This document shows positions 11,240 to 59,020 of a DNA stretch of 64,000 nucleotides, piece by piece. Within the stretch, counting starts at the first letter, position 1. Each line of letters starts with the position of its first letter. The notes under the pieces were generated by a model. It was not told where the DNA came from, did no database searches, and saw nothing but the letters and a program-made list of their open reading frames with translations. This DNA comes from Holothuria scabra (taxonomy: Eukaryota > Echinodermata > Holothuroidea > Aspidochirotida > Holothuriidae). A program made the position numbers and the translations under genes. The DNA lies in the NCBI GenBank assembly GCA_037179385.1, contig CM074189.1, positions 26,535,648-26,599,647 on the forward strand. Reading direction: 5' to 3'.

Positions 11240-12990
11240 TTTGCTTGCTTACACGATATCTTGAGAAGGGAAAATCTGACAATTCTCAAACTTGGTACAC
11301 AGATACCCCATACTGAGAGGAAGAACCCTATTTATTTTGGTGGAGGTCAAAGGTCATCTGGGGTCACAGGGGGTCAAACCCCAAAATCCTTGTTTACACG
11401 ATATCTCAAGATAGGAAACTTGGAGTAATTTCAAACTTGATGTGTGGATGTGTTATGATGTAAGGAAGAACCCTATTGATTTTGGTGGAGGTCAAAGGTC
11501 ATCTGGGGTCACAGGGGGTCAAACCCCGAAATCTTTGTTTACACGATATCTCAAGATAGAAAACTTGGATTAATTTCAAACTTGATGTGTTGATGCTTTA
11601 TGATGTAAGGAAGAACCCTATTGATTTTGGTGGAGGTCAAAGGTCATCTGGGGTCACAGGGGGTCAAACCCCAAAATCCTTGTTTACACGATATCTCAAG
11701 ATACGAAACTTGGAATTATTTCAAACTTGACATGTTGATGTGTTATGATGCAAGGAAGAAACCTATAAATTTTGTTGGCGGTCAGAGGTCATTTGGGGTC
11801 ACATGGGGTCAAACCCCGAAATCCTTGTTTATACAATATCTCATGGTGGGAAACTTGGATTCATTTCAAACTTGATACATAGATGTGTTATGATGCAAGG
11901 AAGAACCCTATTAAATTTTGTTGGCGGTCAGAGGTCATTTGGGGTCACATGGGGTCAAACCCCGAAATCCTTGTTTGCACAATATCTCATGGCAGGAAAC
12001 CTGGATCCCTTTCAAACTTGATATGTTGATGCATTATGATGTGAGGAAGAACCCTATCTATTTTGGTGGAGGTCAGAGGTCATTTGGGATCACATGGGGT
12101 GAAACCCCAAAACCCCTGTTTACACGATATCTCAAGATACAAAACTTGGAATAATTTCAAACTTGACATGTTGATGTGTTTTGATGCAAGGAAGAACCCC
12201 TTTAAATTTTGTTGGCAGTGAGAATTCATTTGGGGTCACATGGGGTCAAACCTCGAAATCCTTGTTTGCAGAACATCTCATGGCAGGAAACATGGATTCA
12301 TTTCTAACTTGATATGTTGATGTGTTATGAGGTGAGGAAGAACCCTATCTGTTTTGGTGAAGGTCAAAGGTCATTCGGGGTCACATTTTGTCAAACCCTG
12401 AAATCCTTGTTTACACAACATCTCAAGGTAGGAAACATGGATTGATTTCAAACTTGATATGTTGATGTGTTATGAGGTGAGGAAGAACCCTATCTGTTTT
12501 GGTGAAGGTCAAAGGTCATTTGGGGTCACATTTTGTCAAACCCCGAAATCCTTGTTTACACGAAATCTCAAGGTAGGAAATTTGGATTGATATCAAACTT
12601 GATATGTTGATGCATTATGATGTAAGGGAGAACCCTGTTGTTTTTGGTGGAGGTCAAAGGTCATCTGAGGTCACAAGGAGTCAAAGTCTGAAAATCTCCT
12701 TAATGTGATATCTCAAGTATGGAAAGTTGGATGAAGTTCATATTTGTTATGTGGATGTGTTATGGTTAGGAGATGGTCCCCATTTCTTTTAGTGGAGGTC
12801 AAAAGTCAGCTGGAGTCACCAATGGTCAAAGTCTGAAAACCTTGTTAACGTGATATCATATGTTTAGGAAGCTTGGATACATCATTTCCTACTTGGGAAA
12901 GTGGATGCATTATGGTCAGGAGATGGTTCCTCTTGTTTTGGGCAGAGATGAAAGGTCATCTGGGGTCTCCAGGGGTAAAAGTTGTAAACC
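11240..12990 (+). repeat. Tandem repeat, about 145-base period
   Basis: Unit starts (GAAGAACCCTAT) fall at 11320, 11465, 11610, 11754 and onward at near-constant spacing. Each unit contains GGTGGAGGTCAAAGGTCAT, GGGGTCACA..GGGGTCAAACCCC, TTGTTTACACGATATCTCAAG and TTTCAAACTTGAT. About ten to twelve units are present and the later ones are increasingly diverged. Related arrays occur at 19950-20570 and 23265-23580. Open frames inside are repeat artefacts. Confidence 0.9.
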
Positions 12991-17119: not shown

Positions 17120-17860
17120 ATTCATGGATGATTGACTCCTGTGCAGTATCTAAGCGGAGTGCCACCATGGGTTGGCGCAGAGCATTCAAGAAAATTTTGG
17201 GCACCACAAACCCTCCAGATAGCCGGAAATGACACTTGGCGAGTGTTATAAGCTGCATGTACCCAGCCCTGGAACAGGGATTTCATGTTTGTAATTTTTA
17301 GATTTTTAGAATTTTCAATGTAAAAAATTGTTGAAGGGAAATCTGCCTCCCGGTAACGGCCTCGCACGCCTATGCACAATAAAACTTACAACTGTCAAAC
17401 AGCCTATATAGGCCTGTATCCGTTACCCAATTATGAATCATTCCCCCCTCCCCCATATTCACCTTTTATATCCCAGTTACATCTGCGCGTCGCCACTTGA
17501 GATCAGCACGGGACCAAACCAAGACCAATGCATTCCTCAATAGACGCAAGCCATATGCACACTACAAACCTGACAACTAGTACAATTTTGGCATAGTTTT
17601 TACAATTACAAATTTCCAATAGATATCACTAATGATGGTCCCCAAATTATGATTTCACTATTCAGCATACCATCTTCTCGTTTGCTATTCCTTGTCAAAT
17701 GTCCGCATATTTCACGAGTAAAAACTGACGCTGTGAGTGAAGATATTTTCATGATTTTTAATTTTTTTATATCAATTTTTAATTAATTTTTTCACAAAAT
17801 TGATTTTCCAGGGGGGGGGGCACTTGCCCCCCTTGCCCCCCATCCAGACCCCCATGAACT
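17120..17860. mobile_element. hAT-like MITE, truncated copy of the 43661-44447 element
   Basis: From ATTCATGGATGATTGA to CCAGGGGGGGGGG..CCCCCATCCAGACCCCCATG it matches 43696-44447 along its length. Shared blocks include AAGCGGAG.GCCACCAT.GGTTGGCGC, ACAAACCCTCCAGAT and GGCATAGTTTTTACAATTACAAATTTCC. The left terminal repeat and G run are missing, so the 5' end is lost. It lies in the intron between the two ZDHHC exons. Confidence 0.75.
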
Positions 17861-19930: not shown

Positions 19931-20570
19931 TGTGTGACGCCTGCTTGTAAACACGATATCTCAAGAACGGTAACCCCCAGGGATCTCAAACTTGGCATGT
20001 AGATTGTCCATATTGAGTAGATGGTCCCTATTTTTTTTGGTGGAGGTCAAATGTCATTTGGGGTCACCAGAGGTCAAAATGTAAATACCTTGGAAATTGC
20101 TTGTAAACACGATATCTCCAGAAGGAAAAATGTGAGCAATCTCATACTTACCTTGCTGATTGTCCATATTGAGTAGATGGTCCCTATTGTTTTTGATGGA
20201 GGTCAAAGGTCATTTGGGGTCACCAGAGGGAAAAAGGTCAAAACCTTGTAAACACCGTATCTCAAGAAGGGTAAATGTGAGGGATCTCATACATAGCAGG
20301 TGGATTGCCCATATTAAGTAGATGATCGCAATTATTTTTGGTGGAGGTCAAAGGTCATTTGGGGTCATCAGAGATGAAAAGCTCAAAAACTTGTAAACAC
20401 CATATGTCAAGAAAGGTAAGTGCCAGGAATCTCATATTTACTGAGTGGATTGTCCATACTGAGTAGATGACCCCTATTGTTTTTATTGGATGTCAAAGGT
20501 CATTTGGGGTCATCAGAGTTCAAAACATCTAAACCTTGCAAACACTATATCTCAAAAAGAGTATATAACT
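19836..20570. repeat. TG microsatellite plus 145-base tandem repeat, second array
   Basis: A GATTCCTTGCCG...GGCAAGGAATC hairpin at 19836-19864 is followed by a TG run (about 19880-19940). About four units follow, with ACACGATATCTCAAGAA, GGTGGAGGTCAAAGGTCATTTGGGGTCACCAG and TTGTCCATATTGAGTAGATGGTCCC at roughly 147-base spacing. It is the same family as 11134-12990. Confidence 0.85.
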
Positions 20571-25012: not shown

Positions 25013-26447
25013 ACAGCCTCCATCAAGTACTCTACTTCTGGATAGTATACATATACCATAGTTTATACAACTATTCAACACCAACAATTCCTTATAATAG
25101 GCATATCACTCAAAAATTTCAAATACACATGGTCCACACAAAAGTCTGTTTATTTGAAAGGGTTTCCCAGAAAGAAGTGAAAATGAAAAAAATTCATGTC
25201 AATCGGATAAAGCATCATGAAGTTCAAAGCTGTTCAAAGTTTGTAAAAGACTGTCAAAAACCTGCCTTGAAATGGAATTTTTGGCAAAATTACATATTTT
25301 AGATTTTTTAATCATCCTCACTTTAAGGCACTGTACTTAAAACCTCATCAAAATGGATTTCCTAATACTATTTACCGAGGTTAATCACTTTCAAAACAAA
25401 AAGAAGTCCCTGTACCTTTGATTTTAAACCTACAGGCCTTAAAAAATGCCATTTTGAGCAAAATCTGAAACTGTGATTAAAGTAAAAACAGAAAAAACCG
25501 ATACAACCCAACTAATTAATATGCATAAATGGCATAACTTTAATTTAAATGGTATTATGGGAATGAAGCTTGGCATGGTGGCTACTGGTGTGAAGGTGCA
25601 TCTTTTCAGAAAAAAGAAGCTAATATCTCCTTTTATATGCAAATGAGCTAATTAATCATGCAAATTACAAATATGCTAATTAAGTACATTCCACATGTGC
25701 ATATCAACATAAGTTGATCACTGAAGGTAAGGATTAGGAAACTGACCCCATTTTGCTACCTGTTGAGCCTTCTCTCATTTTGGGCATTCCCAAGGAAGTA
25801 ACTTTCACAGGAATTTTTCACATGACAACTGCATAAATTGTCTACAAATTAAATGTCACCACGGGCCTATCTTTGATTATTTTTTTTTACCCCACCATTA
25901 CATTTACTTTAGTTGAGACATACAGTTAAAGCATTGTTGTTGTGTCCTTAACCTCTGCCTAATTTATTTATTAAATCTGTGTGGGATTTTTAAGCTCAAC
26001 TATATATCAATAATATAGTTTCATACCTTTGGCACAGAATATTTTCAGGATTGCTTATTAAACAGGACTTGGTATTTTACAATATGCTTAGCAAGTTATC
26101 AACCCACTCCTTTTTGAGTGGGCATACAAAAAGCTGTTTATCTGGTGGTTCATTCCTTAAAGTGTAAAACTTTTTAAAAAATGGCTTGTCCTCATCTCCC
26201 TTTAATTCTTTAACATCTTTTGCTGTATTCTCACAAAGAATTTTTCCTTGATATGTTTTTAGGGTACCCTCAAGAGATAATCAGGAGATAAACAGGTATG
26301 CTGTTCTCTCTTAACTATGATATCAGCTGGAAAGGGGTTGTTTTGGACAACTCTGTTTAGTTATGCCAGAAGACTTGCCTTCAGTTCGATATGACTTTTG
26401 TCCTTCAATGAATTTTATGATACAAAGCAAGCAAACAGGAGTTTTCA
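25013..26447. other. Intergenic DNA, no gene recognised
   Basis: AT-rich. A 108-codon plus-strand frame (24976-25302) starts inside the MITE and has no recognisable domain. A high density of TTAATTA-type words is visible near 25510-25690. Confidence 0.45.
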
Positions 26448-27784
26448 CTACATTAATAACTGATTCAAAATTTCCTGAAGGTTTTTTTTTTCTAATTGTG
26501 GTGTAGCTATGGGCTGACCTGCCAATGTACTGAAAAACAAATGCCATCTGACAGCTCCACAATTAACATATTTGAAATATTTGATTTGAGAGAGCAGAGC
26601 CACTCTTCTTCTTGTCTCATCTTTGTGCTCCAGCATAAGCCTATCTACATCATTTAATGTTTTACATATATAACCACAAGTTTGAATTACACCTTTAGTA
26701 TGAGTGACAGTATGGGACACCAAAAGAAGCTCTTTCTGGCTTCTTTAGCTTTCAGTCTGTTCTCCTGAATTGTCGTTTTCTTAATCTGGTACAGTTTAAG
26801 TACCTGTACCTGTTGCCTACTTTGACCTGCTTTTGTCATGAGTTCATCCCGCTTCTCTTGGTCACATGCATTTAAATAACTTGAAGTTTTACTCAAACTT
26901 CATAACAAAATGCATTGCATAGCTAAGGATGAAATGTTGGGGCTTTTCCGCTTAAGGTAGTCCAACCCTGCACATTTACACGCTCTGCTGCCACATTATC
27001 TTTAGGACAAGTTTGTGTTTCCATCCTAAGATTTTCATCAGGGTTGTGATACTTACCTTCAGACAGATGGTGTACAAGCTGCCTGTCAACACAAATACAT
27101 AGGTTATGAAGTATAATGCTAAGTGCCTGTTCAGTATTAAACTGTTCCTCTTCATCAACTTTACCATGCCAAGCTTTATATATATCATTTTTTATAGGAG
27201 GGAAATCATTAATGGAAACAAAACTGCACTGTCATCAAGGAGATCCTTAGATCTGTCATCTATTTGGAGACACTTGTCAGTGAGACATTCATAATAATAC
27301 TTGTCGGTATCCATTACAGAAATGTTACATTCATCTAACATGCACATCAAATGCATTGTAATATGGAAATTGACAATGCCCATAGCATGTATGCCAGTCA
27401 CAACAATCTTATCTAGCAAATCATACAATACTGATCTAACTGGTTCTTTTGCTTGCTCAGTGGAAGGCTTTCATTGACCTTATCAATGTATCCACTGTAA
27501 TAATGATTTTAGACAGCAGCCCCATTGAAGAATGGTACATCAAATCGATTTCCACGATAGGTTGTTAGTCTGTTTTTGTTCCCAATTTCCCTTACGTGAT
27601 TATTAAACTCCATGGGGCACCCTGCTTTCTCATTGGCAGCAGGGCCAAAAGCCTCACATACTGTTCTAATACTTAAGAGGGCAGCAGACGCCTTTCTGTT
27701 CCAAAGGAGATGCTTTTCCCTCCCAATCTTTCCACCGCCTGACTCTACAGTGTCCCAGTCATGCAATGCTGCTCCTGCATATGC
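26448..27784 (-). pseudogene. Coiled-coil/DGT-family gene, 3' exon, frame-broken
   Basis: Read on the minus strand from the acceptor TTATAG|GCATATGC at 27784, this exon encodes HDWDTVESGGGKIGREKHLL, then RGNRFDVPFFNG, then LLDKIVVTG, then a Lys-rich stretch, and ends KKNLQEILNQLLM. From memory of the family, the KxGREK, GNRF-x-x-(L/P)FxNG and DKIVTG blocks occur in this order in an uncharacterised protein family that is multicopy in cnidarians, echinoderms and amphioxus. The reading frame breaks after FNGAAV (stop), near 27210 (frameshift at GTTTTGTTT), near 26975, at a TGA near 26900 and near 26720. It is therefore a pseudogene unless these are assembly errors. Function unknown; the copy number suggests a transposon link, which is inference. 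Confidence 0.7.
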
Positions 27785-27993
27785 CTATAATTATTCTATT
27801 ACAAAAAAAGGTGCGTCAACCTGTGTCTGCACCATGTGTGATCACATGTGGAAAAACAAAGGAAATCACACATATTCTTGGGTGACAAACCTGCATTTTT
27901 GGAACCTTCTACTCCCTGGTTTGACACAGGTTTTGCACACCTCCTTTCCTTGCTTTTAATATCAAGCCACATGTTTTGTGGAAGAATTCTTTG
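27785..27993. repeat. Inverted end-piece of the 2.7 kb unit
   Basis: TTTGACACAGGTTTTGCACACC...CCACATGTTTTGTGGAAGAATTC at about 27920-27990 is the reverse complement of the unit boundary at 30730-30800 and 33405-33475. The array thus ends in an inverted piece rather than a clean unit edge. It lies in what would be the intron before the 3' exon. Confidence 0.7.
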
Positions 27994-28199
27994 TTAACCC
28001 TAGTTTTTATCACCACACGTTTTGCACATAAAACCTGTGTCAAACCCGTGACAAACCTGTGTCAAACCTGTGGCAAATGACCAACCTGTGTCAATGTAAA
28101 GGGAAATCACAGGTTTTCCTGCAAAAACCTGTGATAACCCGTGGAAAAAACCTGTGAAAACCTGTGAATTTGGAACGAATTGCCTCACCTTTTTTTGTA

Positions 28200-28357
28200 T
28201 ATAGATTGAGAACAACATGTTTACCACAGTACAAATCATTGACCACTGACATATTTAATTTTACCTCTGCACTTTACTCATCCCAGTTTTAAACAACTTT
28301 GGGAAGCACTTTTTTTCTCCATTCTTTTAGAAGTTTAACAAATTTTTTGTTAACAAC
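28200..28357 (-). pseudogene. Unit copy 1, second exon (KLLKEW...YCGKH)
   Basis: After a possible acceptor AGGTAG at 28358-28363, the minus strand reads VVNKKFVKLLKEW..KVLPKVV, stop, NWDE, stop, AEVKLNMSVVNDLYCGKHVVLNL. The LLKEWRxKVLP and NDLYCGKH blocks fit the region that precedes the KxGREK exon in this family. The second stop is present in all three copies; the first is absent from copy 3, which reads VIKNWDE. Confidence 0.55.
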
Positions 28358-29569
28358 CTACCTATTGGGACAAGCGGGTTTCAAATGTAACAATTCTTCT
28401 AAGGATTTCCGGGTTCAGTACAACTTGTCAAATTGGACACAAAAGAAAAAATAGCAAAAGTGGATTTATTCGTGTTAGAAAAAAAAAAATATTATACTTA
28501 AATAGAAAAAGAAAAGTATTCAACTAAATGATACAAGTCTTTCTTGATTGACCTCATCTAGATAAACATGCCGTAACTAAGGAAACAACTATAGATATTC
28601 AATACAGAAAAAAAAAGCCAGCCGGTTCAATTACTCCCTAACTCAACTGACACATATCACAATATCAGCTCCTGCTTCACCTTGGGGTCCGTAAACTAAA
28701 AGAGAATTTGTAACTGGGGTTCAGACTGTCACCACTGTACCATGCTTTTGAATAAACGACCAACAGACATTAACTAAACAAACCCCCTATTGTTTTCCCT
28801 TTTCCCAGTTTTGACAGAAGCAACAAACTGTCTGACTTGGACTACTGGTAAAAGTAAAAGTTCAAAAATGCATTCAACGATACAAAGCATAACGTGTCTT
28901 CGCTCCACGTGGTCTGTCACCCGCTTTTGAGTCTTTCCAAATTATGAGACGGAACGCAGGCGTGGAAATCTCCGTGACAATCCCCCAACTCAGGTACAGC
29001 GTAAAATGGTACAGTGAACTTAAATGACTGACTGCCCGCTACTGGCGTTGCCCGAAGGACTCCTTCTCTTTCGCACCATAACATCGGAGCACCTCTCAAA
29101 ATGATGTACAAACTGAATTTCAGCTGCGAAGAAAGCCCCACATAACACCCTGCCTCCAAAGATACTTGGTAGCCTCGGTTATCTAGCCATTGTAGGCCTA
29201 ACTCTTACAAGGCCTACTGACAGCGATGTTAACTTATCAACGACCTGGGCAGCAGTGAGCAAGCCAGTCCACACCCAGCGAAGAGCAGCGCATCCCTGGA
29301 ACGCATTCCTCAAATGTGCTACCTGTTCATATGCAAACTTTTATCGATGCCGTAATGGCTCTGTTACGTAACACGCAGTGTTTGCCTACACTAAGAAGTC
29401 GAGCCGCATCCATCCAATGTTAACAGATTACCCCCTCAAAAAAATATGTGCTCCCCAAAGCTACAGAGTCTGACAAGCAACCTTATCGTCACACCTATCA
29501 TTCATTGTATTTTTAACTTTCAGCAATAATTTACTGACCATGTTTTCTTCAGATGATACAGTATGTTGT

Positions 29570-30729
29570 CAATACCTTCAAACTGTTCCTATAGCACTTA
29601 AAGCTTCCTGCAGGAGTGTTTCAGAATTTTCTTTTTCTTCTTCTGAGAGCCCAATACCATACACTCCTGCATCTGTACCTGCTAACATTGTAACATATGG
29701 CACATGCTTTTTTGAAGTGCCATCTATCAAAAGAGTGACAGGAGTTTGATTGTTGTTGATGGCTTCCTTTGCCACATCTTCCGCAAGCAATGCTTGCTCA
29801 AAAGCCATGTAATGTATGCATGTAGGCTTGGGTAATTTGCGACACTCTAATCCTGCAACACGTTGTAATACAAGAAGAATTATATCTGAAACATTCTTTG
29901 ACCCAACACCTCTAGAAATTAATTCATAACATACAACTTAATATCTTTAGTGTATGTTCCACCATCAAAAGTAGATATTTCATGATTTCCCATCATCTCA
30001 TCCAGCTGACAAATAATGAAGTCATTTTCTTCCTCAAGGTCCTTTAATTTTCTTTTCATATAATGACCTATTCTCATTCTCAAATTTTTCATCGACATTT
30101 GTCAATTTGAGTACATTATAACGAACCTAGCTGTTCTGTTCTATTTTTTCGTGTGCGCCTTATCTCCTCTACAATGGTGTTCAGCTTGGAAACTTCTTTC
30201 GGCACTTGTCGTGTTTTTGCCTTCTCCTTCCTTAACTTAGCATCCCTAATTTTAAGTCATCTCACTACATTTACTTTCTGAAGAGACCAAATTTCTTTTT
30301 TCAACTCTTCATTGTAAGTTCAACTGCTTTCTTTAATTCTCTTTCATACTTAGAGCACGACTGCTTATGCTCTTTGACAATTCTTTTCAGAGTTGCTTCT
30401 CCTTCTTCTCTTGCTGACGTTGCTTCAGCTGCAATGTTTTCTGCAGTTCTGCACTTTGCTTCACTCTCTTTCAATTGTTGTTCCAAGAAAGCTTTATCCT
30501 TTCTTTCTTGCTCTAACAAATCATGCAAGATGACGATTGTATCTCCATGCTTTTTGAGAGGGTAGGGTGAAACACTTGAATCAGTGGTTTCATATTCATC
30601 ATTCGAGTTATCTAAACTACCTTCCTCAAAACTTTCCTCTTATTCTGCAACCACGTCTAAATTTACATTTGCTTTTTTATGAGTTTGCTGAACATACCTC
30701 TGTCTAAGAAACTTCTCTTTTAATTCAGA
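29570..30729 (-). pseudogene. Unit copy 1, coiled-coil and DGT exon
   Basis: The minus strand encodes a Glu/Lys-rich coiled coil starting HDLLEQERKDKAFLEQQL, then LEEENDFI..QLDEMMGNH, then the block TLLIDGTSKKHVPYVTMLAG. DGTSKK is the family's characteristic strand-turn motif; the two later copies have DGPSKK. Insertions near 30120 and 30315 and several base changes break the coil more than in copies 2 and 3. A 76-codon open stretch covering the DGT block survives at 29578-29808. Confidence 0.6.
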
Positions 30730-30899
30730 ATTCTTCCACAAAACATGTGGCTTGATATTAAAAGCAAGGAAAGGTGTGCAAAACCTGTGTCAATGTCAAG
30801 GGAAATCACAGGTTTCCCTGCAAAAACCTGTGATAACCCATGGAAAAAACCTGTGAAATGCTGCGAATGTGGAACCAATTGCCTCATCTTTTTTTGTAT

Positions 30900-31056
30900 A
30901 TAGGTTGAGAACAACATGTTTACCACAGTACAAATCATTGACCACTGACATATTTAATTTTACCTCTGCACTTTACTCATCCCAGTTTTAAACAACTTTG
31001 GGAAGCACTTTTTCTCTCCATTCTTTTAGAAGTTTAACAAATTTTTTGTTAACAAC
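30900..31056 (-). pseudogene. Unit copy 2, second exon (KLLKEW...YCGKH)
   Basis: Same coding blocks as at 28200-28357, with the same two in-frame TAA codons. The exon would end near the sequence encoding VVLNL, where the ATATACAAAAAAAG tract begins. Confidence 0.5.
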
Positions 31057-32237
31057 CTACCTACTGTGACAAGCGGGTTTCAAATGTAACGATTCTTCTA
31101 AGGATTTCCCGGTTCAGTACGACTTGTCAAATTGGACACAAAAGAAAAAATAGCAAAAGTGGATTTATTCGTGTTAGAAAAAAAATATATTATACTTAAA
31201 TAGAAAAAAAAGTATTCATCTAAATGATACAAGTCTTTCTTGATTGACCTCATCTAGATAAACATGCAGTAACTAAGGAAACAACTATAGATATTCAATA
31301 CAGAAAAAAAAAGCCGGCTGGTTCAATTTCTCCTTAACTCAACTGACCCATATCACAATATCGGCTCCTGCTTCACCTTGGGGTCCGTAAACTAAAAAAG
31401 AATTGGTAACGGGGGTTCAGACTGTCACCACTGTACCATGCTTTTGAATAAACGACCAACAGACATTAACTAAACAAACCCCCTATTGTTTTCCCGTTTC
31501 CCAGTTTTGACAGAAGCAACAAACTTTCTGACTTGGACAACTGGTAAAAGTTCAAAAATGCATTCAACGATACAAAGCATAACGTGTCTTCGCTCCACGT
31601 GGTCTGTCACCCGCTCTGGAGTCTTTCCAAATTATGAGACGGAACGCAGGCGTGAAAATCTCCGTGACAATCCCCCAACTCAGGGACAGTGTAAAATGGT
31701 ACAGTGAACTTAAATGACTGACTGCCCGCTACTGGCGTTGCCCGAAGGACTCCTTCTCTTTCGCACCATAACATCGGAGCACCTCTCAAAATGATGTACA
31801 AACTGAAATTCAGCTGTGAAGAAAGCCCCACATAACACCCTGCCACCAGAGATACTTGGTAGCCGCGGTTATCTAGTCATTGTAGGCCTAACTCTTACAA
31901 GGCCTCCTGACAGCGATGTTAACTTATCAACGACCTGGGCAGCAGTGAGCAAGCCAGTCCATACCCAGCGAAGAACAGCGGGTCCCTGGAACGCATTCCT
32001 CAAATGTGCTACCTGTTCATATGCAAACTTTCATTGGTTGCCGTAATGGCTCTGTTACATAACACGCAGTGTTTGCCTACATTAAGAAGTCCTATCCTAT
32101 ATTAACAGATTACCCCCTCAAAAAAATATGTGCTCCCCAAACCTACTGAGTCTGACAAGCAACCTTATCGTCCCACCTATCATTCATTGTATTTTTAACT
32201 TTCAGTAATAATATACTGACAATGTTTTCTTCAGATG

Positions 32238-33404
32238 CTACAGTATGTTGTCAATACCTTCAAACTGTTCCATAGCACTTAAAGCTTCCTGCAGGAGTGT
32301 TTCAGAATTTTCGTTCTCTTCTTCTGAGAGCCCAATACCATACACTCCTGCATCTGTACCTGCTAACATTGTAACATATGGCACATGCTTTTTTGAAGGG
32401 CCATCTATCAAAAGAGTGACAGGAGTTTGATTGTTGTTGATGGCTTCCTTTGCCACATCTTCCGCAAGCAATGCTTGCTCAAAAGTCATGTAACGTATGC
32501 ATGTAGGCTTGGGTAATTTGCCACACTCTAATCCTGCAACACGTTGTAATACAAGACGAATTATATCTGAAACATTCTTTGACCCAACACCTCTAGAAAT
32601 TAATTCATAACATACAACTTAATATAGTTAGTGTATGTTCCACCATCAAATGTAGATATATCATGATTTCCCATCATCTCATCCAGCTGACAAATAATAA
32701 AGTCATTTTCTTCCTCAAGGTCCTTTAATTTTCTTTTCATATAATGACCTATTCTCATTCTCAAATTTTTCATCGACTTTTGTCAATTTGAGTACATTAT
32801 AACGAACCTGTTCTGTTCTATTTTTTCGTGTGCACCTTAGCTCCTCTACAATGGTGTTCAACTTGGAAACTTCTTTCGGCAGTTGTCGTGTTTTTGCCTT
32901 CTCCTTCCTTAACTTAGCATCCCTAATTTTAAGTCTTCTCACTACATTTACTTTCTCAAGAGACCTAATTTCTTTTTTCAACTCTTCATTAAGTTCAACT
33001 GCTTTCTTTAGTTCTCTTTCATACTTAGAGCACGACTGCTTGTGCTCTTTGACAATTCTTTTCAGAGTTGCCTCTCCTTCTTCTCTTGCTGTCGTTGCTC
33101 AGCTGCAATGTTTTCTGCAGTTCTGCACTTTGCTTCACTCTCTTTCAATTGTTGTTCCAAGAAAGCTTTATCCTTTCTTTCTTGCTCTAACAAATCATGC
33201 AAGATGACGATTGTATCTCCATGCTTTTTGAGAGGGTAGGGTGAAACACTTGAATCAGTGGTTTCATATTCATCATTGGAGTTATCTAAACTACCTTACT
33301 CAAAACTTTCCTCTTATTCTGCAACCACCTCTAAATTTACATTTGCTTTTTTATGAGTTTGCTGAACATACCTCTGTCTAAGAAACTTTCTCTTTTAATT
33401 CAGA
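32238..33404 (-). pseudogene. Unit copy 2, coiled-coil and DGT exon
   Basis: It encodes the same coil and the same TLLIDGPSKKHVPYVTMLAG block as copy 3. One base is lost in GCTGTCGTTGCTCAGCTGC near 33090 relative to copy 3 (GCTGACGTTGCTTCAGCTGC), which splits the coil into two frames. The DGT block remains open at 32238-32489. Confidence 0.6.
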
Positions 33405-33575
33405 ATTCTTCCACAAAACATGTGGCTTGATATTAAAAGCAAGGAAAGGTGTGCAAAACCTGTGTCAATGTCATGGGAAATCACAGGTTTCCCTGCAAAA
33501 ACCTGTGATAACCCATGGAAAAAACCTGTGAAAACCTGCGAATGTGGAACCAATTGCCTCATCTTTTTTTGTATA

Positions 33576-33731
33576 TAGGTTGAGAACAACATGTTTACCA
33601 CAGTACAAATCATTGACCACGGACATATTTAATTTTACCTCTGCCTTTTACTCATCCCAGTTTTTAATGACTTTGGGAAGCACTTTTTCTCTCCATTCTT
33701 TGAGAAGTTTAACAAATTTTTTGTCAACAAC
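33576..33731 (-). pseudogene. Unit copy 3, second exon (KLLKEW...YCGKH)
   Basis: Minus-strand reading is as in the other copies, but one stop is absent: PKVIKNWDE replaces PKVV-stop-NWDE. The TAA before KAEVKLNMSVVNDLYCGKH is shared with copies 1 and 2. Flanking acceptor as in copy 1. Confidence 0.5.
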
Positions 33732-34162
33732 CTACCTATTGTGACAAGCCGGTTTCAAATGTAACGATTCTTCTAAGGATTTCTGTGTTCAGTTCGACTT
33801 GTCAAATTGGACACAAAAGAAAAAATAGCAAAAGTGGATTTATTCGTGTTAGAAAAAAAATATATTATACTTAAATAGAAAAAAAAAAGTATTCAACTAA
33901 ATGATACAAGTCTTTCTTGATTGACCTCATCTAGATAAACATGCAGTAACTAAGGAAACAACTATAGATATTCAATACAGAAAAAAAAAGCCGGCCGGTT
34001 CAATTTCTCCTTAACTCAACTGACCCATATCACAATATCGGCTGCTGCTTCACCTTGGGGTCTCTAAACTAAAAAAGAATTCGTAACTGGGGTTCAGACT
34101 GTCACCACTGTACCATGCTTTTGAATAAACGACCAACAGACATTAACTAAACAAACCCCGTA

Positions 34163-34729
34163 TTGTTTTCCCTCTTCCCAGTTTTGACAGAAGCAACAAA
34201 CTGTCTGACTTGGACTTCTGGTAAAAGTAAAAGTTCAAAAATGCATTCAACGATACAAAGCATAACGTGTCTTCGCTCCACGTGGTCTGTCACCCGCTCT
34301 GGAGTCTTTCCAAATTATGAGACGGAAAGCAGGCATGGAAATCTCCGTGACAATCCCCCAACTCAGGTACAGCGTAAAATGGTACAGTGAACTTAAATGA
34401 CTGACTGCCCGCTACCGGCGTTGCCCGAAGGACTCCTTCTCTTTCGCACCATAACATCGGAGCACCTCTCAAAACGATGTACAAACTGAATTTCAGCTGT
34501 GAAGAAAGCCCCACATAACACCCTGCCTCCAGAGATACTTGGTAGCCTCGGTAATCTAGTCATTGTAGGCCTAACTCTTACAAGGCCTCCTGACAGCGAT
34601 GTTAACTTATCAATGACCTGGGCAGCAGTGAGGAAGCCAGTCCACACCCAGCAAAGAACATCGGGTCCCTGGAACGCATTCCTCAAATGTGCTACCTGTT
34701 CATATGCAAACTTTCATTGGTTGCCGTAA
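34163..34729. other. Conserved two-strand open region in each unit (intron-like spacer)
   Basis: Between the two exons of each unit, plus-strand frames (34163-34390 and 34499-34729) and minus-strand frames (34290-34514 and 34393-34686) are open. Most recur in copies 1 and 2 at 28917-29340 and 31486-32046. The base composition is richer in G+C than the surroundings. I do not recognise any product. It may be an unrelated sequence, for example a promoter or an older insertion, captured in the intron. Confidence 0.4.
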
Positions 34730-34920
34730 TGGCTCTGTTACATAACACGCAGTGTTTGCCTACATTAAGAAGTCCTATCCTATATTAACAGATTACCCCC
34801 TCAAAAAAATATGTGCTCCCCAAACCTACTGAGTCTGACAAGCAACCTTATCGTCCCACCTATCATTCATTGTATTTTTAACTTTCAGTAATAATATACT
34901 GACAATGTTTTCTTCAGATG

Positions 34921-36279
34921 CTACGGTATGTTGTCAATACCTTCAAACTGTTCCATAGCACTTAAAGCTTCCTGCAGGAGTGTTTCAGAATTTTCGTTCT
35001 CTTCTTCTGAGAGCCCAATACCATACACTCCTGCATCTGTACCTGCTAACATTGTAACATATGGCACATGCTTTTTTGAAGGGCCATCTATCAAAAGAGT
35101 GACAGGAGTTTGATTGTTGTTGATGGCTTCCTTTGCCACATCTTCCGCAAGCAATGCTTGCTCAAAAGTCATGTAACGTATGCATGTAGGCTTGGGTAAT
35201 TTGCCACACTCTAATCCTGCAACACGTTGTAATACAAGACGAATTATATCTGAAACATTCTTTGACCCAACACCTCTAGAAATTAATTCATAACATACAA
35301 CTTAATATAGTTAGTGTATGTTCCACCATCAAATGTAGATATATCATGATTTCCCATCATCTCATCCAGCTGACAAATAATAAAGTCATTTTCTTCCTCA
35401 AGGTCCTTTAATTTTCTTTTCATATAATGACCTATTCTCATTCTCAAATTTTTCATCGACTTTTGTCAATTTGAGTACATTATAACGAACCTGTTCTGTT
35501 CTATTTTTTCGTGTGCGCCTTAGCTCCTCTACAATGGTGTTCAACTTGGAAACTTCTTTCGGCAGTTGTCGTGTTTTTGCCTTCTCCTTCCTTAACTTAG
35601 CATCCCTAATTTTAAGTCTTCTCACTACATTTACTTTCTCAAGAGACCTAATTTCTTTTTTCAACTCTTCATTAAGTTCAACTGCTTTCTTTAGTTCTCT
35701 TTCATACTTAGAGCACGACTGCTTGTGCTCTTTGACAATTCTTTTCAGAGTTGCCTCTCCTTCTTCTCTTGCTGACGTTGCTTCAGCTGCATTGTTTTCT
35801 GAAGTGCTGCACTTTGCTTCACTCTCTTTCAATTGTTGTTCCAAGAAAGCTTTATCCTTTCTTTCTTGCTCTAACAAATCATGCAAGATGACGATTGTAT
35901 CTCCATGCTTTTTGAGAAGGTAGGGTGAAACACTTGAATCAGTGGTTTCATATTCATCATTCGAGTTATCTAAACTACCTTCCTCAAAACTTTCCTCTTA
36001 TTCTGCAACCACCTCTAAATTTACATTTGCTTTTTTATGAGTTTGCTGAACATACCTCTGTCTATGAAACTTCTCTTTTAATTCAGAAGTAGAATCTCTA
36101 ACAAGGACTTGTGTCCTTTTATCCACACTCTCCCAACTACTCAGAATTGTGCCTGTTGGTGGAATGTCATCACTGGGAAATAATTTTGGCCACCACTTAC
36201 CAGAGACAACTTTCCATGCTACTGAATGCCTTTGTCTATACCAGGCTTCCTCAATTAAATTTGCTAGAGCACCACATTG
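34921..36279 (-). pseudogene. Coiled-coil and DGT exon, copy 3 with true upstream part
   Basis: From the acceptor ATATTTAG|CAATG at 36279, the minus strand reads CGALANLIEEAWYRQRHSV..GKWWPKLFPSDDIPPTGTIL, then a basic region RTQVLVRDSTSELKEKFHRQ, then a stop (GAATAA). A 162-codon coiled coil follows at 35398-35886, and after two frame changes the TLLIDGPSKKHVPYVTMLAG block at 34921-35172. The coil is rich in Glu, Lys and Leu heptads. Frame changes near 35400 and 35290 and the early stop are present in all three units, so they predate the triplication. From memory of the family, WYR..W, TGT(I/V)L and LxxKF blocks precede the coil. The protein's role is unknown; a nucleic-acid-associated or transposon-encoded role is conjecture. 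Confidence 0.65.
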
Positions 36280-36864
36280 CTAAATATCACTGACATAGTG
36301 GGCCACTGGTCGCCATCCTGGGGGAAGGGGTGCCCCCTCACACCCCCTCCCCTTTTGAAAATTTTTGCATTTCAGAAGGGGCTTGCATGAAAAATGGTGC
36401 AAAATTTGTTCAATTTTCCCATCCTAGATTTTTCACAAGCTTTACATTTTTTGCTGATTCACAGGTAAAATCGACAAAGCCCTGACTCTAATAAATGTAG
36501 GCAGTGACGTTGATTTTACTTTCATGGGAAAACAAATAGGACATAATGATATCCTTGTTGGTATGCGGCATCAGTCTGTGGGAAGTATTAGATTTATTTA
36601 CAGTACCTATTTTTGAGACAGAATAATTCTTGTCAATAAGGTTATGAATTAAATTTTTCACTATTATCCCAGTAATTTTTGCGCCACTCCAAACCACATT
36701 GCACGCCATAAGCGGCACACGCGCCGTTGTTTGAGGAAGCCTGGTCTATACTGATAAAGTTTGGCAGTAACAGCATTTGTTAAGACAACATTGTCTGCCA
36801 GGATGCAACCTTCCCTTAACCACTGGGGTGTAATACCTTGCTCACCACAAGCTGGGTCCCACTA

Positions 36865-37147
36865 TTTCTTGATGGTGCTGAGATAGGTCTATCATCTCTT
36901 CAGCCAGTAGATTCAGATTTCCCTTCATTTCAGCACTGGCTGCACGACGTTTGATTTTTGAAATTAATCTAGGGACGTTTGATTTTTGAAATTAATCTAG
37001 CCAAAGCCATCTTTGGTTCTCGAAGACCCATTGCTTTAATAATTGCAGGCAAGTCTTTCCTATATATGAGATGCTCTGAATCTTCCACAGCACATCGAAT
37101 GAGTTCCATTAACCCAAACGTCGGGGTAGGGTTGTCATACCAGTGAT
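36865..37147 (-). pseudogene. Coiled-coil/DGT-family gene, upstream exon with 28-base duplication
   Basis: After the acceptor TTCCATTTAG|AT at 37147 the minus strand encodes DHWYDNPTPTFGLMELIRCA, then EDSEHLIYRKDLPAIIKAMG and ARLISKIKR. A perfect 28-base tandem duplication at 36947-37002 introduces a stop and a frameshift. With one copy the frame would continue into a helix-rich AASAEMKGNLNLLAEEMIDL. I link it to the downstream exons by strand, spacing and style; the initiator exon was not found. Confidence 0.5.
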
Positions 37148-37874
37148 CTAAATGGAATGAAAGAGTGAGGGTAAAGAAATTTGAAGATGTTGTACTGTAT
37201 TGTATATAGCTTGCTCAATATTTATATCAGCACTTTAATTAAAGATCAACAGAACAGAAACTGTTTTTGTTTTTGAATGAAAAGATTATTGCCACAGGTA
37301 AAATAAAGGAGAACATCTTAAACATCTTTTTCTCTCTAAAATACACCCCTGCCCTTTCTTCCTCATAATAATGAATAGTTAAATTGAGAAGTTTAGATTA
37401 GCTAGGCCTAGCTATATGTAGCTACCAGTTTCAAATATGTAGGCCTACCCTGAACTGTGAATGTGAGAGTGACTGTTGTTCATGGGCTAAGCTAATCAAT
37501 CTCATGGTCTCATGAAAGATGTAGATTTGAAATGCTTGCCCAAGAAATAAAAAAAATGAATACCCTATCTGCTACTCTTTTTTGCCAATAACACAATGCT
37601 TCCTCACTAAAACTCCATCGTCTATTTTCCTACTGGTTAGGTTTATCACTTATAACAGCCAAAAAGTTGCATGCATGCGCGTCGTTCACACAAAGATAAA
37701 TAAATGCTGTGCTTTTTTCGTTAGTTTATACTTGTTTATTTTGGTTGTGCCATTTACTGTACATACAACCCTTCACTACTTTTAAAATACCCTCATCTTT
37801 TCTGTAGAAAATTCATCAATTTGAATCAGTTTCCTTCCCAATGCAGCTATTCATGCCCCTTAAAAATTTCTTAG

Positions 37875-38029
37875 GTACGTGAAAGTGCAAAAATTTCTCG
37901 CCAGGACATGTCCGACTTTGCACAAGAACTGATATTTCATCGGCAATCCCTGCTGTCAACCTTCTTATCTGATCAAGCCTGCTCATCATGGCGTAGCAGG
38001 TCTTTTGACCGGTATGCGGGTGCGAAGAA
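37875..38029 (+). CDS. Candidate internal exon, unrecognised
   Basis: Between an acceptor-like TTTCTTAG and a strong donor AGAA|GTAAGG the plus strand is open for 51 codons: VRESAKISRQDMSDFAQELI, then HRQSLLSTFLSD and SWRSRSFDRYAGAK. If the donor is not used the frame stops at TAA 38031-38033. The opposite strand is also open here, which weakens the call. I do not recognise a family; the composition (polar, amphipathic helix) is protein-like. Confidence 0.3.
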
Positions 38030-41000
38030 GTAAGGACTTATTCATGTTCATTTCCTCATTTCCTTGAGTGTTGCACACTATGAATACAAAATCTGATTAA
38101 ACAGTAGTAGAGTATGGGTCTTTTCCTACATTATGATAGTTTCAAATTTTCAAAACGATGAAAAAAAGCAAAATTATAAGGAATTTTCAGCAAGTGTTGT
38201 AAAGTGTGGTAGCTTCTTCATACAGGGGAAGGTCAAAGCTACCTTATATGGTAAGGATGTCTACATATTTGGAGTGTAATACTAATAAGGCCAGCTCATT
38301 TAAAAATGGAGAAATTTCAGTCTGAACAAAATGCTTTGGTCTGGGTTCCTCACAAATGCAGTTAAACCCTCTTCACAGTAAGGCAGTCAAAACTTTGGTT
38401 AAAGATGCTTTTCAAAAAAATACTTCTTGTTTGTATTTCGTAAAAATATTTTACAAGAGTGAAGGGAAAGGTTCAGTCTAAAGGGTGCAGTTTATTCTGT
38501 GATCCTAGTTGGTGTAACTTTCCCACACGAACGTTTCAAAGTTGAATGTGAGGAGTTGTCCGTGCCGTCTTTTCACCTTGCTGTACACACAGCATGTTGC
38601 TTTGTTTAAACTATGCTATGCCTAGTATTGGACCACAAGTACCTTAATTTACATAGCATCTCTCTCAAAACAAGCATGTTCAATTAAGTCATACTTTGTC
38701 CAGTTCATCAATTTCATAGACATTCCATTTGAATCAATTTTATTAATACAGAGTGAATTATTTATAAGTAAAGTAATGTATTATCATTCATTTATCTCTG
38801 ATATTTCAGATTTGTGAAGATGTGGTTTTTTGCTCACAGTTTGGCAAGTGATATAGATAAAATAATGATGAGACAATTTTGTTATTTTTTTTTGTGATTA
38901 AGTTGCAGTAACATACCCAGGCCATTTTACAACAAAAAACCTTGTTTTATGTTGATTTATTCAAACCACACCGACCGGCCTCCATTTTAATGTTTCACTA
39001 TCTTTGTTAAGACAAATCAAATGTTATGAATCTCATATTTTGGTGACTATATCAGCTTGTACATTTAATATTAACATGTTGTAAACAAGAACATCACTGT
39101 AATTTTTTTACTAAAAATTATACAAGAGAACCTTTTCAGTTAGACCTTATACCTTATCCCTTCTATAAAAAGATGTTAATAATTTTTGCATATTCATTTG
39201 CTATTGACCTGTCCTGAATTCTGTTCTGTGCATTTCATACCTAGTCTAAAATCCAACCTGTTGGTAGGAATCAAATTTGATATTTTGCAAATTTGTTTGC
39301 ACCTACAGGCTGCACTGAAACTGCTTTAATGCTCATCAGGTTTTATCATATTTATGTTTAAAATGTAAGGTGTTGGAGTGATGGCATGTTGTGGTTGCAA
39401 ATATGAGGTAATACCTGGACTACGATACGTGGGCAATTTGAGTTATGACTACAAGTGTGTAAAAGGATATAAGGGGCATATCAATTAACAGGCACTGCCA
39501 CCAAATGCTGGATGGCAAACCATGTTAAATTCCTGATTAGTAATTGCTCATTCCATCTTGATATCCACTCAGAGTTTCTCATTGGAAGGGGAACTTCTTG
39601 GGAAATGATAGCAGCATGTTTTAAAATCTCATGTATGAAATATTTTGATATGAAACTCATTCCTTGTACTGTGTATACGGCAGCAATGAGATGCTTGCCA
39701 TTTTTTGATGATATATGCAGCTTCAGTGTATTGTGAAACAAAGGATGAGGTCTCGTGTTCAATACTGTGTTCAAATAAAACTGACAGTTCTCTATACTGG
39801 TCCCTTTCAATTGTTAAAATCTGAAGATATCTTTCATAGAGTTTGACTTTCCTTTAAGGTTTGTTCAGAAATAGATTGTATTAGCATTGCACTGACATAG
39901 CCAAGAATGGCTTTCACAATCAACTGAATCAGATGAAGTCAGTCTTCCCATTTTCCTCTTCTGCTGTTCCCCCTCCCCTTCCCTTAAACAAGTACCCCTA
40001 TCTCAATTATGGTAATTTATGCATTAGTCATTAAATTTATCCTCTTTTAAATGACACATGACTTGGTAGAGATATTTAACTCTTTATTTTTGTCAATACA
40101 AGATAAGAGGAACCCATCTTGCAGTAGGCAAAGTTTTGTTTGTGTGTTTGTGGTAGGGAAAGGGATTATTGGGGTTAGGGGTCCATGTATTCTGCTTGGA
40201 GATGTTTTATTTCAGCAGTTTGTTCAATGCCTTGAATTGAGTTGTAACAGTTACTTCATTTACAAGGTATAGAATCATCTAACTCATAGGATATTTCCTT
40301 CTTTAAGTTATTTATTTTCATTTATGGACAGGGCCGGTTTACTCAATAAAATGTTTTCTAGATCAAAGTAAGTCCAAAGGTTTACAAGATTTAAAGTTCA
40401 CTATGTCGAAGGTGCACTATATGGAAGGTTCTCTAGACCAAACTTATCTCAGACAAGATTGATCACCAATGTATCCATAATTCACTTTTCATATATTCTG
40501 TTTAATGTATAGTTTTGAATTTTTTGACTTGAGGTACACTTTAACGAACCTGTCTGTTGTCAAAAAATTTGATCTAGTAAATTTTTATCAAGTGAACCCT
40601 TTGATGTAGTGAAAATTCTCCTTTCAATATTTCCAGTTGATCAAAGTGTATCATTTACAGTAACATTCTTAATCATTATATCACATATTTATTAAAGATA
40701 AGATAGTTAGGAAAACTTTTTTGCTCCATCACGGAAATCTGAGTACTCTCAGAAGAAAAAATATAAAAATATAAAAGTACAAACATACAAAAATAGACAT
40801 AAGAATATTTTATACATTTAGTTTTCTCAATTTCTTATTATCTTGGGTAAGTGCAGTTTTGTCTGTGGATTGAGACTTATATGACTGGGATATGAAAAAG
40901 TCTGTAACTGCCCTTTTGAGACAAGTATTTTTTTTTTTTTACATCAAGTTAAAAGTTCATCCCAAATTGAAGCAGTGTAGTAGACTGTCCAGTTTCATGA

Positions 41001-43660: not shown

Positions 43661-44447
43661 CATGGGCGTCCGCAGAAATTTTTACAAGGGGGGGGCAAGG
43701 TCATTCATGGATGATTGAATTGTGTACACTATATAAGCGGAGCGCCACCATAGGTTGGCGCGGAGTGTACAAGAAAATTTTGGGCTTTACAAACCCTCCA
43801 GATGGCCGGAAGCGACACTTGGCGAGTGTTATAAGCTGCATGTACCCAGCCCTGAAACAGGAATTTCATGTCTGTAATTTTTAGATTTTTAGAATTTTCA
43901 ATGTAAAAAATGGTTGAAGGGAAATCTGCCTCTCTGTCACGGCCTGGCACGCCTATGCACGACAAAACTTACGCTGTCAAACAGCCTGTATAGGCCTATA
44001 TCTGTTACCCAATTATGAATCATACCCCCCCCCCCCCCCTCCAATATTCACCTTGTATATCCTATTTAAATCCGCACATTGCCACTTGAGCATGGGACCA
44101 AACCAAGCCAACGCAGTCATCAATAGTCGGATGCCATATGCACACTACATACCTGAAAACCAGTACAATTTTGGCATAGTTTTTACAATTACAAATTTCC
44201 AATAGATGTCACGAATGATGGTCCCCAAATTTCGATTTCACTATTCAGCATACCATCCTCTCTTTTGCTATTCGTGGTCAAATGTCCACATATTTCACGA
44301 GTAGAAAATGACGCTGTGAGTGAAGATATTTTGATGATTTATTTTTAATTTTTTTTATTTAAATTTTTAATTAATTTTTTCACAAGTTTGATTTGTCTGG
44401 GGGGGGGGGGCAAGTGCCTCCCTTGCCCCCCCTTCCGGACGCCCATG
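43661..44447. mobile_element. hAT-like MITE, CATGGGCGTCCG ends, complete copy
   Basis: The left end CATGGGCGTCCG and the right end CGGACGCCCATG are perfect inverted repeats. The eight-base target duplication CACTTTGG is perfect (43653-43660 and 44448-44455). G-run/C-run tracts lie just inside both ends. Its 787 bases encode no transposase. A truncated relative is at 17120-17860. Confidence 0.92.
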
Positions 44448-45183
44448 CACTTTGGGCTAGAAGGACTTATAATGTCATGGAAGTCATCTTTACTGCAGCT
44501 TATAACTTTCTTCCAGATATTTTCATATTTGGTGGATGAGGTAGTATTGATTTTACCAAAATATAATAGAGAGCATACTGTGACGTCGCTTCTTGAAAAA
44601 TTAACATAGACACCCCAGTACATCAAAGGCAGTGTGGGGTGTAACTAATATCTGAGTTTGTTACATGATCTGTGTCCTCAAATAAGCTATGCTTTCATTG
44701 TGTTCATAATGCGTGAAAAGCAATTAACACATGCTGAATGAACTGTTTGCAAATCCCAAATGTTCCGCAACTTTTTTTGTATTGAAACACATCTTTGACT
44801 GTCAATCAATATAAAATCAGATATGAAACTTGACTTACTCAAGTTTGCATGTAGTGGGCTTCTTTTCCTCCCTGAAGTGATGAGAGTTAATCAGGCAGAA
44901 ATGAAAGATGTAACAAAAAGTAAGAGGGAACGTTTCATCATGGGGTGGTAAGACAGGCTCCTCATATAAAGGGTTGTGTGGATATGTGTGTGGAGGGGAG
45001 ATGTATAGTATACCACTCCTCCTTTCCCTTCAGTTTGTATTGACCAATGAAAGAACTTGTCAATGACAGAATACCAAATTAAATCTGCATCTTCCAACTA
45101 AGAAGGTAATTTAAGCTTTATTGTTACAGTTTTCCAGTAGCCAGTGCTTTAGTCGAAATATAACCCTTTGGGTATCAGCTTAA

Positions 45184-45489: not shown

Positions 45490-48400
45490 TTCATGTTGGG
45501 AAAATAAGGCTGAAGTGTTGGAATGATTCTCAGTCTACATAGATGTTTTTTAACTGTATCACCACCAATCATTCTTGGAAACCGCTCTCACACACCTCTT
45601 TACTGGTGCACATATGAGGCTTGAAACTGTTGTGTAGAGATGCCCAGTAGAGGTGAGGGCACCCACAAGTGCCTTTTGAATGTCCTTTGAGTCCTAAGTG
45701 CAATTGAGCTAAAAATGAGGTCCCTGCACTGGCAGGTGTTGAAATGCTTCTGGGCCTTAAAGGGCTAGCTATAGCTTAGGGTTTTGTCATTACTGTACAT
45801 ACTTTATAGTTTGCCAAAGGTAGGCTACTGTTGTGTTCTTCAAAGACTGTGGTTGAAGGGAAAGGACAGAAAAAGTGAAGGGGGAGGGCTCATCTACCAA
45901 ATACTTATCATTAAATGGAAACTAAGGATAAAAATTAATTGAGGTCATGTGAGAAGCATAACTCCTTAACCTGTTATCCAAAATAGGATTATGTATTATG
46001 GTTCAACAAAATCTGATTGCTTGGAAAGTAAAAATAACTAACATCTGAACTTTTCCTTCATATGAAAAGTTTGGGAGATACAATACATATGCAGGTATGG
46101 CTATTATTATAATTATAAACAAAGTGAAATTAAAGGTCACTGGTACAAGTAAAATCAAATTGTACTGAAATTCTGTGTTCTGCCATATGTGAAACATCTT
46201 TGGTTGCATTGATTAATATTTCAGAGTTTTATTTTTTTTGTTTTCATAATAATCTGTATGTGTATATCAGTTCATCAATAACATCCAAAGAAAAGAAAAT
46301 ATGAAAATTTGTACATGACTTCATTTTGTGAAATCCAGAAGTACAATACTTGCAATTTTGTGTGTGTGTTGTTACATTAGTATGTTTTTGGTGTAGGTCA
46401 TGCACTTTCCAAAGATGATGTAATTTTGAAGCATTTTGTCCAACTTTCCCAATGTGGACACCATCTGTTGGTATAGAGGTGTACATATGCCCTTTATACA
46501 CATAAAATCAGCCACACTTACCTATGCCTATTTACTTCACAGGGATTAAAGACCATACTGTATACCCTGTGACTGTGCTGTCACCGTCAGTCACTTTGTT
46601 GTTTACTGTTATGAATACTTCCATATTCGCCAGAAATATTACATCACTGTGCCCCACCTAAAAACTTTGTTTGAACAATTAAGATTCTTCTCTTACTCTT
46701 GGCTTTCTCTAGGAAAGTAAACTTTACAGAAATTTCTGACCTGACTCCTGCCTTGCTATTTTTTTAGTGGAAATTGATCCCCCATTTTTTTCTTACCGTA
46801 ACATTGAAAATGATATCACATTTAAAGAACTTCATACATATAGTAATTAGATATGCTTTATACACATAGTAATAGATATGCTTTATACACATAGTTATTA
46901 GATATGCTTTATACACATAGTAATTAGATATGCTTTGGGTGATTTTTTTTTTTCTAATATTTATAATTTGTGTTTGTGATTTTCATTGGTATTTAGAATT
47001 AATTAGCCAGCATACACCTTATTATGCAGTCTGACAAAAATTTGTTGACATCGTTATTCCGAGTTCAGCCAATACAGGTGCAGGAAAGAGACAAGCCTAC
47101 AAAATGCAGCTTAGGTTTGGTTATACTCCTAATCCTTAATTCAGAACAGCCATTGAAATACTCTGACACATCAAAATTATGTTTTTGTAAATAAAAAATC
47201 ATTTTATTTCTATACATTACACAGAAAGTTCACAAATTCATGCAATATTTATTTTTTCCTTGTGGACATTTCGAGGCAAGGAAATTTACATTATATCCAC
47301 CATTCAAATTATGATGCATTGTGGTCGCTGACCTCAGGCAGCAACACCGATTTTAGAAAGCGGCATGCTTAATTAATTTTACACATTTCATAGTACAATT
47401 TTATTAAAGCTTGTGATAAAAGAAAAATAAACCTGATACCAGGGCATTGACAGTGTCTTCATTGAAAGAAGGAGAAGATAAAAGATAAGAGGTAAGAAAA
47501 AAGAAAAGTAAATAAAAAATATAGATACAACTCTTGCAAACGAAACAAAATAGACCATTTTATCTCCACAATACACAAAACGCTACACACACGTGTACAC
47601 GTGCAAATAGCTATATCCTTCCCAATATGACCTTTGAGGTGCAACATACTTAATTAAGTGCTTTTCAATGTACAAATAAATTCCAATTAGAAAAGCAAAC
47701 CAAACCCATTTTGCTAATTAATGAGCACACTAAAAACTTGTACCAGTGAAAGCAGAAATAATCTATTGCTTGGCTTCATCTACATCAAGTCAGAAATAAC
47801 AAGAGCAGTATTTCCACCCCTCTTCCCTTCTATATTTGTACCCCCTGTCTTTGCCTATAACTAATTAAACCAGCCTATTTATCACCCCAAATTTCTCTGC
47901 CTATTTGTAGAATAACAACACCCCCCCCATTAATGTCCCTAGCACTATAATATCCTAGGAAGTTCTATACATACAGCTAAACAGCATGGCATGATCCCTC
48001 CCTAGACCTCCACACCCTTTCGTGTTTGGTGCACTTAACCCTTGAAACTTTAACCAAATCAACAACACACACTAGCAGGTGTCACCCTGCTCATAACTTA
48101 ACCTGTACAAGGGACAAGCTGGGTTTGCATAGCAATTTGCTACCCAAGAATTGTCAGTTGCTAGGCAATTCTAATTTTGATAAGAATTTGCAGTAGTGGC
48201 TAATACTAATGACTCCATAAAGAACTGTTAAGCGATATTTTGCTAATCAATTCACTTATGCTATTTTGTCCCCTGCTGTATATACTCCATAAACATTTAC
48301 CAAACAAAAATGTACAACATTTTAAACTGCATTAAAAGACGAATACCAATAGAACACACTCAGGATTCAACTGCTTTGGAGAAATGAGACTGGAAACAAC

Positions 48401-58814: not shown

Positions 58815-59020
58815 ATAGGCTGCACCTGCCTCGGCTATGCTACAGTTGCCTTGGCTATGCTGCAGCTATTTCAGCTATGCTACCTTGGCTATGCTGCAGC
58901 TGTCTCGGCTATGCTGCAAATACCTCGGCTATGCTGCACCTGCCTTGGTTATGCTACAGCTGCCTTGGCAATGCTGCAGCTGCCTCAGCTAGGCTGCAAT
59001 TGTCTTAGCTATGCATGCTT
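58815..59020. repeat. GC-richer minisatellite, about 20-base unit
   Basis: About ten units of CTCGGCTATGCTGCAGCTGC or close variants lie end to end. The plus strand stays open for 102 codons through it, giving a Cys/Leu/Ala/Gln-rich peptide, but a unit length not divisible by three rotates the frame. I regard the open frame as a repeat artefact. Confidence 0.85.

Follow-up and report, generated by a model that had tools for sequence, protein, structure and literature searches.

Transposons of the hAT superfamily, to which the Hermes transposase belongs, usually generate 8-bp target site duplications (TSDs), and their transposases are known by a BED zinc finger and the hAT C-terminal Pfam domain. 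The P superfamily (P element, Galileo) is marked by a THAP domain. Tandem duplications can be produced by microhomology-mediated template switching (MMBIR/FoSTeS), and a typical error of assemblers in repeat-rich genomes is to multiply an internal block into several divergent copies. In excerpts of one report, the Dada superfamily is described as having TSDs of 6-7 bp and a C/DxxH motif (PMC8869645).

The locus considered here lies in a stretch of 64,000 nucleotides of Holothuria scabra DNA (contig CM074189.1), which was analysed as a whole and is called the window. We consider, with a probability of about 0.88, that a cut-and-paste transposon of 6.0 kb died here and received nested insertions, and that part of it was then duplicated, most likely by template switching, extended by unequal exchange and homogenised along one tract. 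The locus is an ordinary one, and the array is genome debris, the repeated middle of a transposon that has decayed, taken up insertions and been rearranged internally; it does not supply a functioning host gene with additional exons.

Structure of the array

The first-pass annotation had described three head-to-tail units of 2.7 kb, with the sequence outside the array being single at both ends, and both observations hold. A repeat finder returned three direct copies at spacings of 2674-2699 bases, and in a self-BLAST positions 28083-33405 aligned with 30782-36088 in one alignment of 5,334 columns at 96.6% identity. The array of three units of ~2.68 kb (Table 1), known from the assembly alone, is therefore real and far beyond chance. 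Its edge is at 36088. At the other end U1 has no distal junction and continues into the unrearranged 401-bp MITE (28199-27799). By self-BLAST no second copy of the flanks (36089-38624 and 27792-25098) was found in the window, barring two small pieces, namely a 70-bp inverted piece of the MITE (27921-27990) and a 28-bp tandem duplication.

Table 1. Positions of the features of the locus within the window
Feature	Position	Strand	Remarks
Transposon copy	25098..38624	minus	Old hAT-like 6.0-kb DNA transposon; BLAST to L009/L010/L011, pieces of 80-94% identity
U3	33405..36088	minus	Tandem unit, proximal to transposon 5' end; repeat finder and self-BLAST
U2	30730..33404	minus	Tandem unit; repeat finder and self-BLAST
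U1	28083..30729 (unit to about 28000)	minus	Tandem unit; homology to U2/U3 ends at ~28083, inside the 401-bp MITE
U3/U2 junction	33402..33468	minus	67 bp of the 401-bp MITE, inverted; joins transposon position 36088
U2/U1 junction	30727..30793	minus	Same 67-bp inverted MITE piece and same fusion to 36088
401-bp MITE	27799..28199	minus	TACAAAAAAAG...CTTTTTTTGTA; unrearranged, at end of U1
1.1-kb dispersed repeat	U3 33732..34856; U2 about 31057-32173; U1 about 28358-29489	minus	TG...CA ends, ATAGG direct repeat
Near-identical tract	U3 34660..35773; U2 about 31985-33089	minus	Approximate; coordinates hand-converted from alignment columns
28-bp tandem duplication	36946..37000	minus	Lies beyond the array; causes a frameshift in the transposase
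502-bp hAT-type MITE	36242..36743	minus	TIR CAGGCTTCCTCAA, exact 8-bp TSD GTATAGAC; inside the supposed 5' exons of the first-pass annotation

The transposon and its young copies

The animal's own genome (1.19 Gb, 31 contigs) was searched at the DNA level with 731 coding bases as query. At least three further places outside the array match this query at 91-92%; as the best 40 of 700 candidates were scored, copy counts are lower bounds. These three loci, L009, L010 and L011 (on C16, C7 and C11), measure 6011, 6013 and 6008 bp and have a mutual identity of 99.7, 99.3 and 99.2% over ~6.01 kb. All three end in 11-bp terminal inverted repeats (TIRs; TAGGCATAGCA...TGCTATGCCTA), and each is flanked by an exact 7-bp TSD (CTTGTAT, TTAACAG and ATTCTAG). 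Terminal inverted repeats, a TSD of constant length and dispersed near-identical copies are the marks of a cut-and-paste (TIR) DNA transposon, and these loci are young copies of one such element of 6.0 kb. The copy in the window aligns end to end with them, except for insertions, the extra units and an unaligned part at 26069-25700. Its 11-bp TIR is intact at 38624, whereas at 25098 a single base deviates. Its 7-bp flanks (CCAATAC and TTATAAG) do not match each other, so that no TSD is recognisable and the ends do not by themselves bear out an insertion of this copy.

In L009 two frames, of 532 and 760 codons, overlap, L010 has a 658-aa ATG frame followed by a 418-aa frame, and in L011 the sole frame of more than 300 codons on the strand examined is one of 657. 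An uninterrupted frame over the whole transposase was found in none of the three in this assembly, and the mobility of the 6-kb copies is thus judged from TSDs and identity only.

Decay of the frame

It had been proposed that the same two exons of a coiled-coil/DGT gene were triplicated. An internal coiled-coil/DGT coding block is indeed present three times, but the exons of a host gene are not, since the young copies lack the supposed introns and carry these blocks as contiguous coding sequence. Introns between coding blocks, as a multi-exon host gene has, were accordingly not found there. Judged against the young copies, the supposed exons are pieces of one transposase frame, and the supposed introns are later insertions, namely the 502-bp MITE, the 1.1-kb repeat carried by every unit and the 401-bp MITE.

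Every unit carries two nonsense changes, three frameshifts (+4, -1 and +5) and the 1.1-kb insertion, none of which occurs in any of the three young copies; U1 and U2 have additional private frameshifts. Because the same inactivating changes exist in every unit, the frame was dead before the triplication. A transcript running through the array would thus be unable to encode three intact coil/DGT repeats, and the suggestion that a spliced transcript repeats this region three times is not supported. When the 1.4-kb coding part of the units was compared with the young copies, leaving out gapped columns and columns variable among the young copies, 123 substitutions were scored. The majority (78) are common to U1, U2 and U3. 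Private substitutions number 16 in U1, 2 in U2 and 10 in U3. Of those found in just two units, 11 belong to the pair U2-U3, 2 to U1-U2 and 1 to U1-U3; three follow other patterns.

Mosaic history of the units

Overall identity is 97.91% between U3 and U2, 94.79% between U3 and U1 and 95.25% between U2 and U1, the last two values including 38 and 37 mismatches, respectively, from the final complete block of 100 columns, over which U1 lacks homology. In columns 0-315 the pairs U3-U2, U3-U1 and U2-U1 differ at 8/312, 6/313 and 4/312 positions. The corresponding counts are 2/1109, 38/1108 and 38/1108 in columns 315-1440, and 46/1191, 59/1199 and 48/1191 in columns 1440-2640. For U3-U2 the two larger ranges differ strongly (2/1109 vs 46/1191; Fisher p 2e-11, with bounds picked after inspection of the data), and for U2-U1 the same ranges give p 0.51 (38/1108 vs 48/1191). 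The longest U3-U2 run without a substitution is 597 columns, and in a test with no chosen bounds it was matched in none of 10,000 random placements.

The near-identical stretch of ~1.1 kb is thus a recombination or conversion tract along which U2 and U3 were homogenised, and apart from it the divergence of the units is star-like. The first-pass annotation had taken copies 2 and 3 as nearly identical and copy 1 as older. Near-identity is seen over ~1.1 kb of the 2.68-kb unit, but not elsewhere, as the 46/1191 differences in columns 1440-2640 indicate. Since the tract is homogenised, a copy 1 that is simply older is too simple a picture.

Junctions and proposed order of events

U2 and U3 both end with the first ~117 bp of the 401-bp MITE, followed by the inverted 67-bp piece with a 12-base overlap, and then by position 36088. 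The homology, read by eye, is 12 bp at the first switch (TTGACACAGGTT) and 4 bp at the second (TTCT). As both internal junctions share this structure, the first duplication would be a single event and the third unit the product of a misaligned exchange. The short homologies and the short inverted insert resemble those of MMBIR/FoSTeS tandem duplications. The present array differs in being old and in lying within a dead transposon, and its mechanism is read from the scar only.

The following order of events probably accounts for these observations. The transposon would have inserted and then decayed, after which the 1.1-kb repeat and the 401-bp MITE would have inserted into it. A tandem copy of the stretch from 36088 to the interior of the MITE would then have been made, most likely when replication switched template twice: it would have moved first to the other strand of this MITE at the 12-bp inverted homology, and then returned to 36088 at the 4-bp microhomology. 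Misaligned recombination between two units would have given the third, and a later exchange would have homogenised ~1.1 kb of U2 and U3.

The same junctions could also be explained in two steps, with the MITE interior inverted on one haplotype through the 12-bp inverted repeats, a tandem duplication by the 4-bp microhomology, and an unequal exchange with the uninverted haplotype. The junction piece is the MITE interior reversed, from the 12-bp repeat to the breakpoint, U1 retains the uninverted form, and the scar does not separate template switching from an inversion of the MITE with a microhomology-joined duplication. We nevertheless regard this route as rather unlikely. It requires one more allele and one more exchange, and the inverted form was seen in none of 12 full or near-full elements from 11 fetched loci (L018 holds another, incomplete element that is not included), which like that of U1 are colinear; these elements are other insertions and not alleles. 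An alternative (aberrant) transposition driven by the ends of the MITE or of the transposon is very improbable, for the breakpoint, although within the MITE, is interior to it and away from the terminal repeat, while at the other breakpoint there is nothing but ordinary coding sequence.

Two further explanations were weighed. If repeats or diverged haplotypes had been misassembled, one or two true units might appear as three, and the array would then be an instance of the usual assembler error in a repeat-rich genome. However, the units are 2-5% apart, U1 and U2 carry private indels, both junctions are one complex MITE fusion that is not expected of ordinary misjoining, and the flanks are unduplicated in the window. 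The private indels, the divergence and the complex shared junction make an assembly error improbable. A host gene with two internal exons tandemly triplicated, whose transcript repeats the coil and DGT regions, is hardly tenable. Open stretches (up to 199 aa) are alike between units and coding pieces flank the array on both sides, but 6.0-kb copies with TSDs exist at other loci, the young copies are without introns, identical inactivating changes are found in all three units, and no stop-to-stop frame in the window is longer than 199 aa. We thus favour the dead transposon with template switching. The array shows that an inactive transposon in which insertions lie nested can pass for a multi-exon gene that has amplified its exons, and so mislead gene annotation; its junction cleanly preserves the trace of a duplication routed through an inverted MITE piece.

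Affinity of the transposase

A protein search gave 17 matches (7996 candidates scored), the named ones being from Amphiura filiformis and Lytechinus. Five relatives of 1141-1224 aa were taken further, and in these Pfam gave no family at its cut-off. Eight pieces of the window in Pfam, one piece against PDB sequences and the whole window in Rfam likewise gave nothing above cut-off or convincing, and ARAGORN found no tRNA in the window. The predicted model of one relative has a Hermes-like RNase H core with an all-helical insertion, at a low global TM in Foldseek. D472, D546, C592 and H595 are present in all 15 sequences with letters at these positions, and E863 in 13 of 13. The putative DDE triad and the C/DxxH motif by which the hAT superfamily is recognised are thus in place, and the family appears to be Hermes-like with a predicted Spindlin-like domain.

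The assignment to Hermes is made among the families listed by the fold search. The element differs from hAT in its 7-bp rather than the usual 8-bp TSD, and its transposase in a long N-terminal coiled coil and the predicted Spindlin-like C-terminal domain; BED finger and hAT C-terminal domain were not reported by Pfam in the five relatives. As for the P superfamily, THAP was not reported by Pfam in the same relatives, the N-terminus is poorly modelled, and the fold match is weaker than to Hermes. With Dada elements, as excerpted, the likeness lies in 6-7-bp TSDs and the C/DxxH motif (PMC8869645). The present copies differ, as neither their three target duplications nor their flanks resemble one another. 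Dada elements insert into small RNA genes that are present in many copies; the three 9.9-kb loci gave 0 tRNA and 0 Rfam matches, though this search could overlook an RNA gene that the element had interrupted. A literature search for hAT transposase, target site duplication and spindlin returned no paper, though the lineage may have been described all the same.

It is tentatively suggested that the transposon could represent an undescribed Hermes-like lineage, in which the C-terminal Spindlin-like (Tudor-type) domain may recognise histone marks and direct insertions to certain kinds of chromatin, the array being a by-product of decay. The wider interest of the locus would lie in this transposase lineage and its unusual domain make-up, as it may join a Hermes-like core to a chromatin-reader-like domain.

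Other inserted elements

The 1.1-kb repeat is absent from the three young copies and present at other genomic places. With its TG...CA ends and 5-bp repeat it looks like a solo LTR, but its two halves are ~690-700 bp apart at 6 of the 23 places counted outside the array, and a solo LTR is therefore no more than a candidate class. The 502-bp hAT-type MITE also landed upstream and is given no place in the order of events. It has at least 36 further matches in the genome, among the best 40 of 1259 candidates that were scored.

The transposon and its old copy

The ends of the 6.0-kb DNA transposon could still be recognised in the old, decayed copy on the minus strand of the window (25098-38624), but in its flanks a 7-bp target duplication was not found (TTATAAG at 25091-25097 versus CCAATAC at 38625-38631). 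Five relatives of the transposase gave no Pfam family above the cut-off; in the structural model of one relative, the predicted core is Hermes-like and the predicted C-terminal domain is Spindlin-like.

The 1.1-kb insert, a dispersed repeat carried by each tandem unit (U1, U2 and U3) of the array in the window copy, has relatives at 23 places outside that array. At 6 of these its halves lie about 690-700 bp apart, and at two it is colinear as in the window, on contigs C8 (91%) and C19 (81%) of the same genome.

Features located in the window and in three other loci of the same genome (L009-L011)
Feature	Location	Remarks
145-bp tandem array	window 11318-12990	~10 copies
145-bp tandem array	window 19942-20563	~4 copies
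1.1-kb insert	window 33732-34856	equivalents in U1 and U2
Short tandem array	window 46830-46936	26-bp unit
Short tandem array	window 58819-59014	20-bp unit
Short tandem array	window 61587-61866	20-bp unit
Young 6.0-kb transposon copy	L009 2619-8629	7-bp TSD
Young 6.0-kb transposon copy	L010 2732-8744	7-bp TSD
Young 6.0-kb transposon copy	L011 2588-8595	7-bp TSD

Other repeats

The two 145-bp arrays are alike, and the unit of both contains GGTCAAAGGTCA, which resembles a nuclear-receptor half-site repeat. A further repeat pair of the window (17120-17860 and 43703-44451) shows 87% identity across 756 columns.
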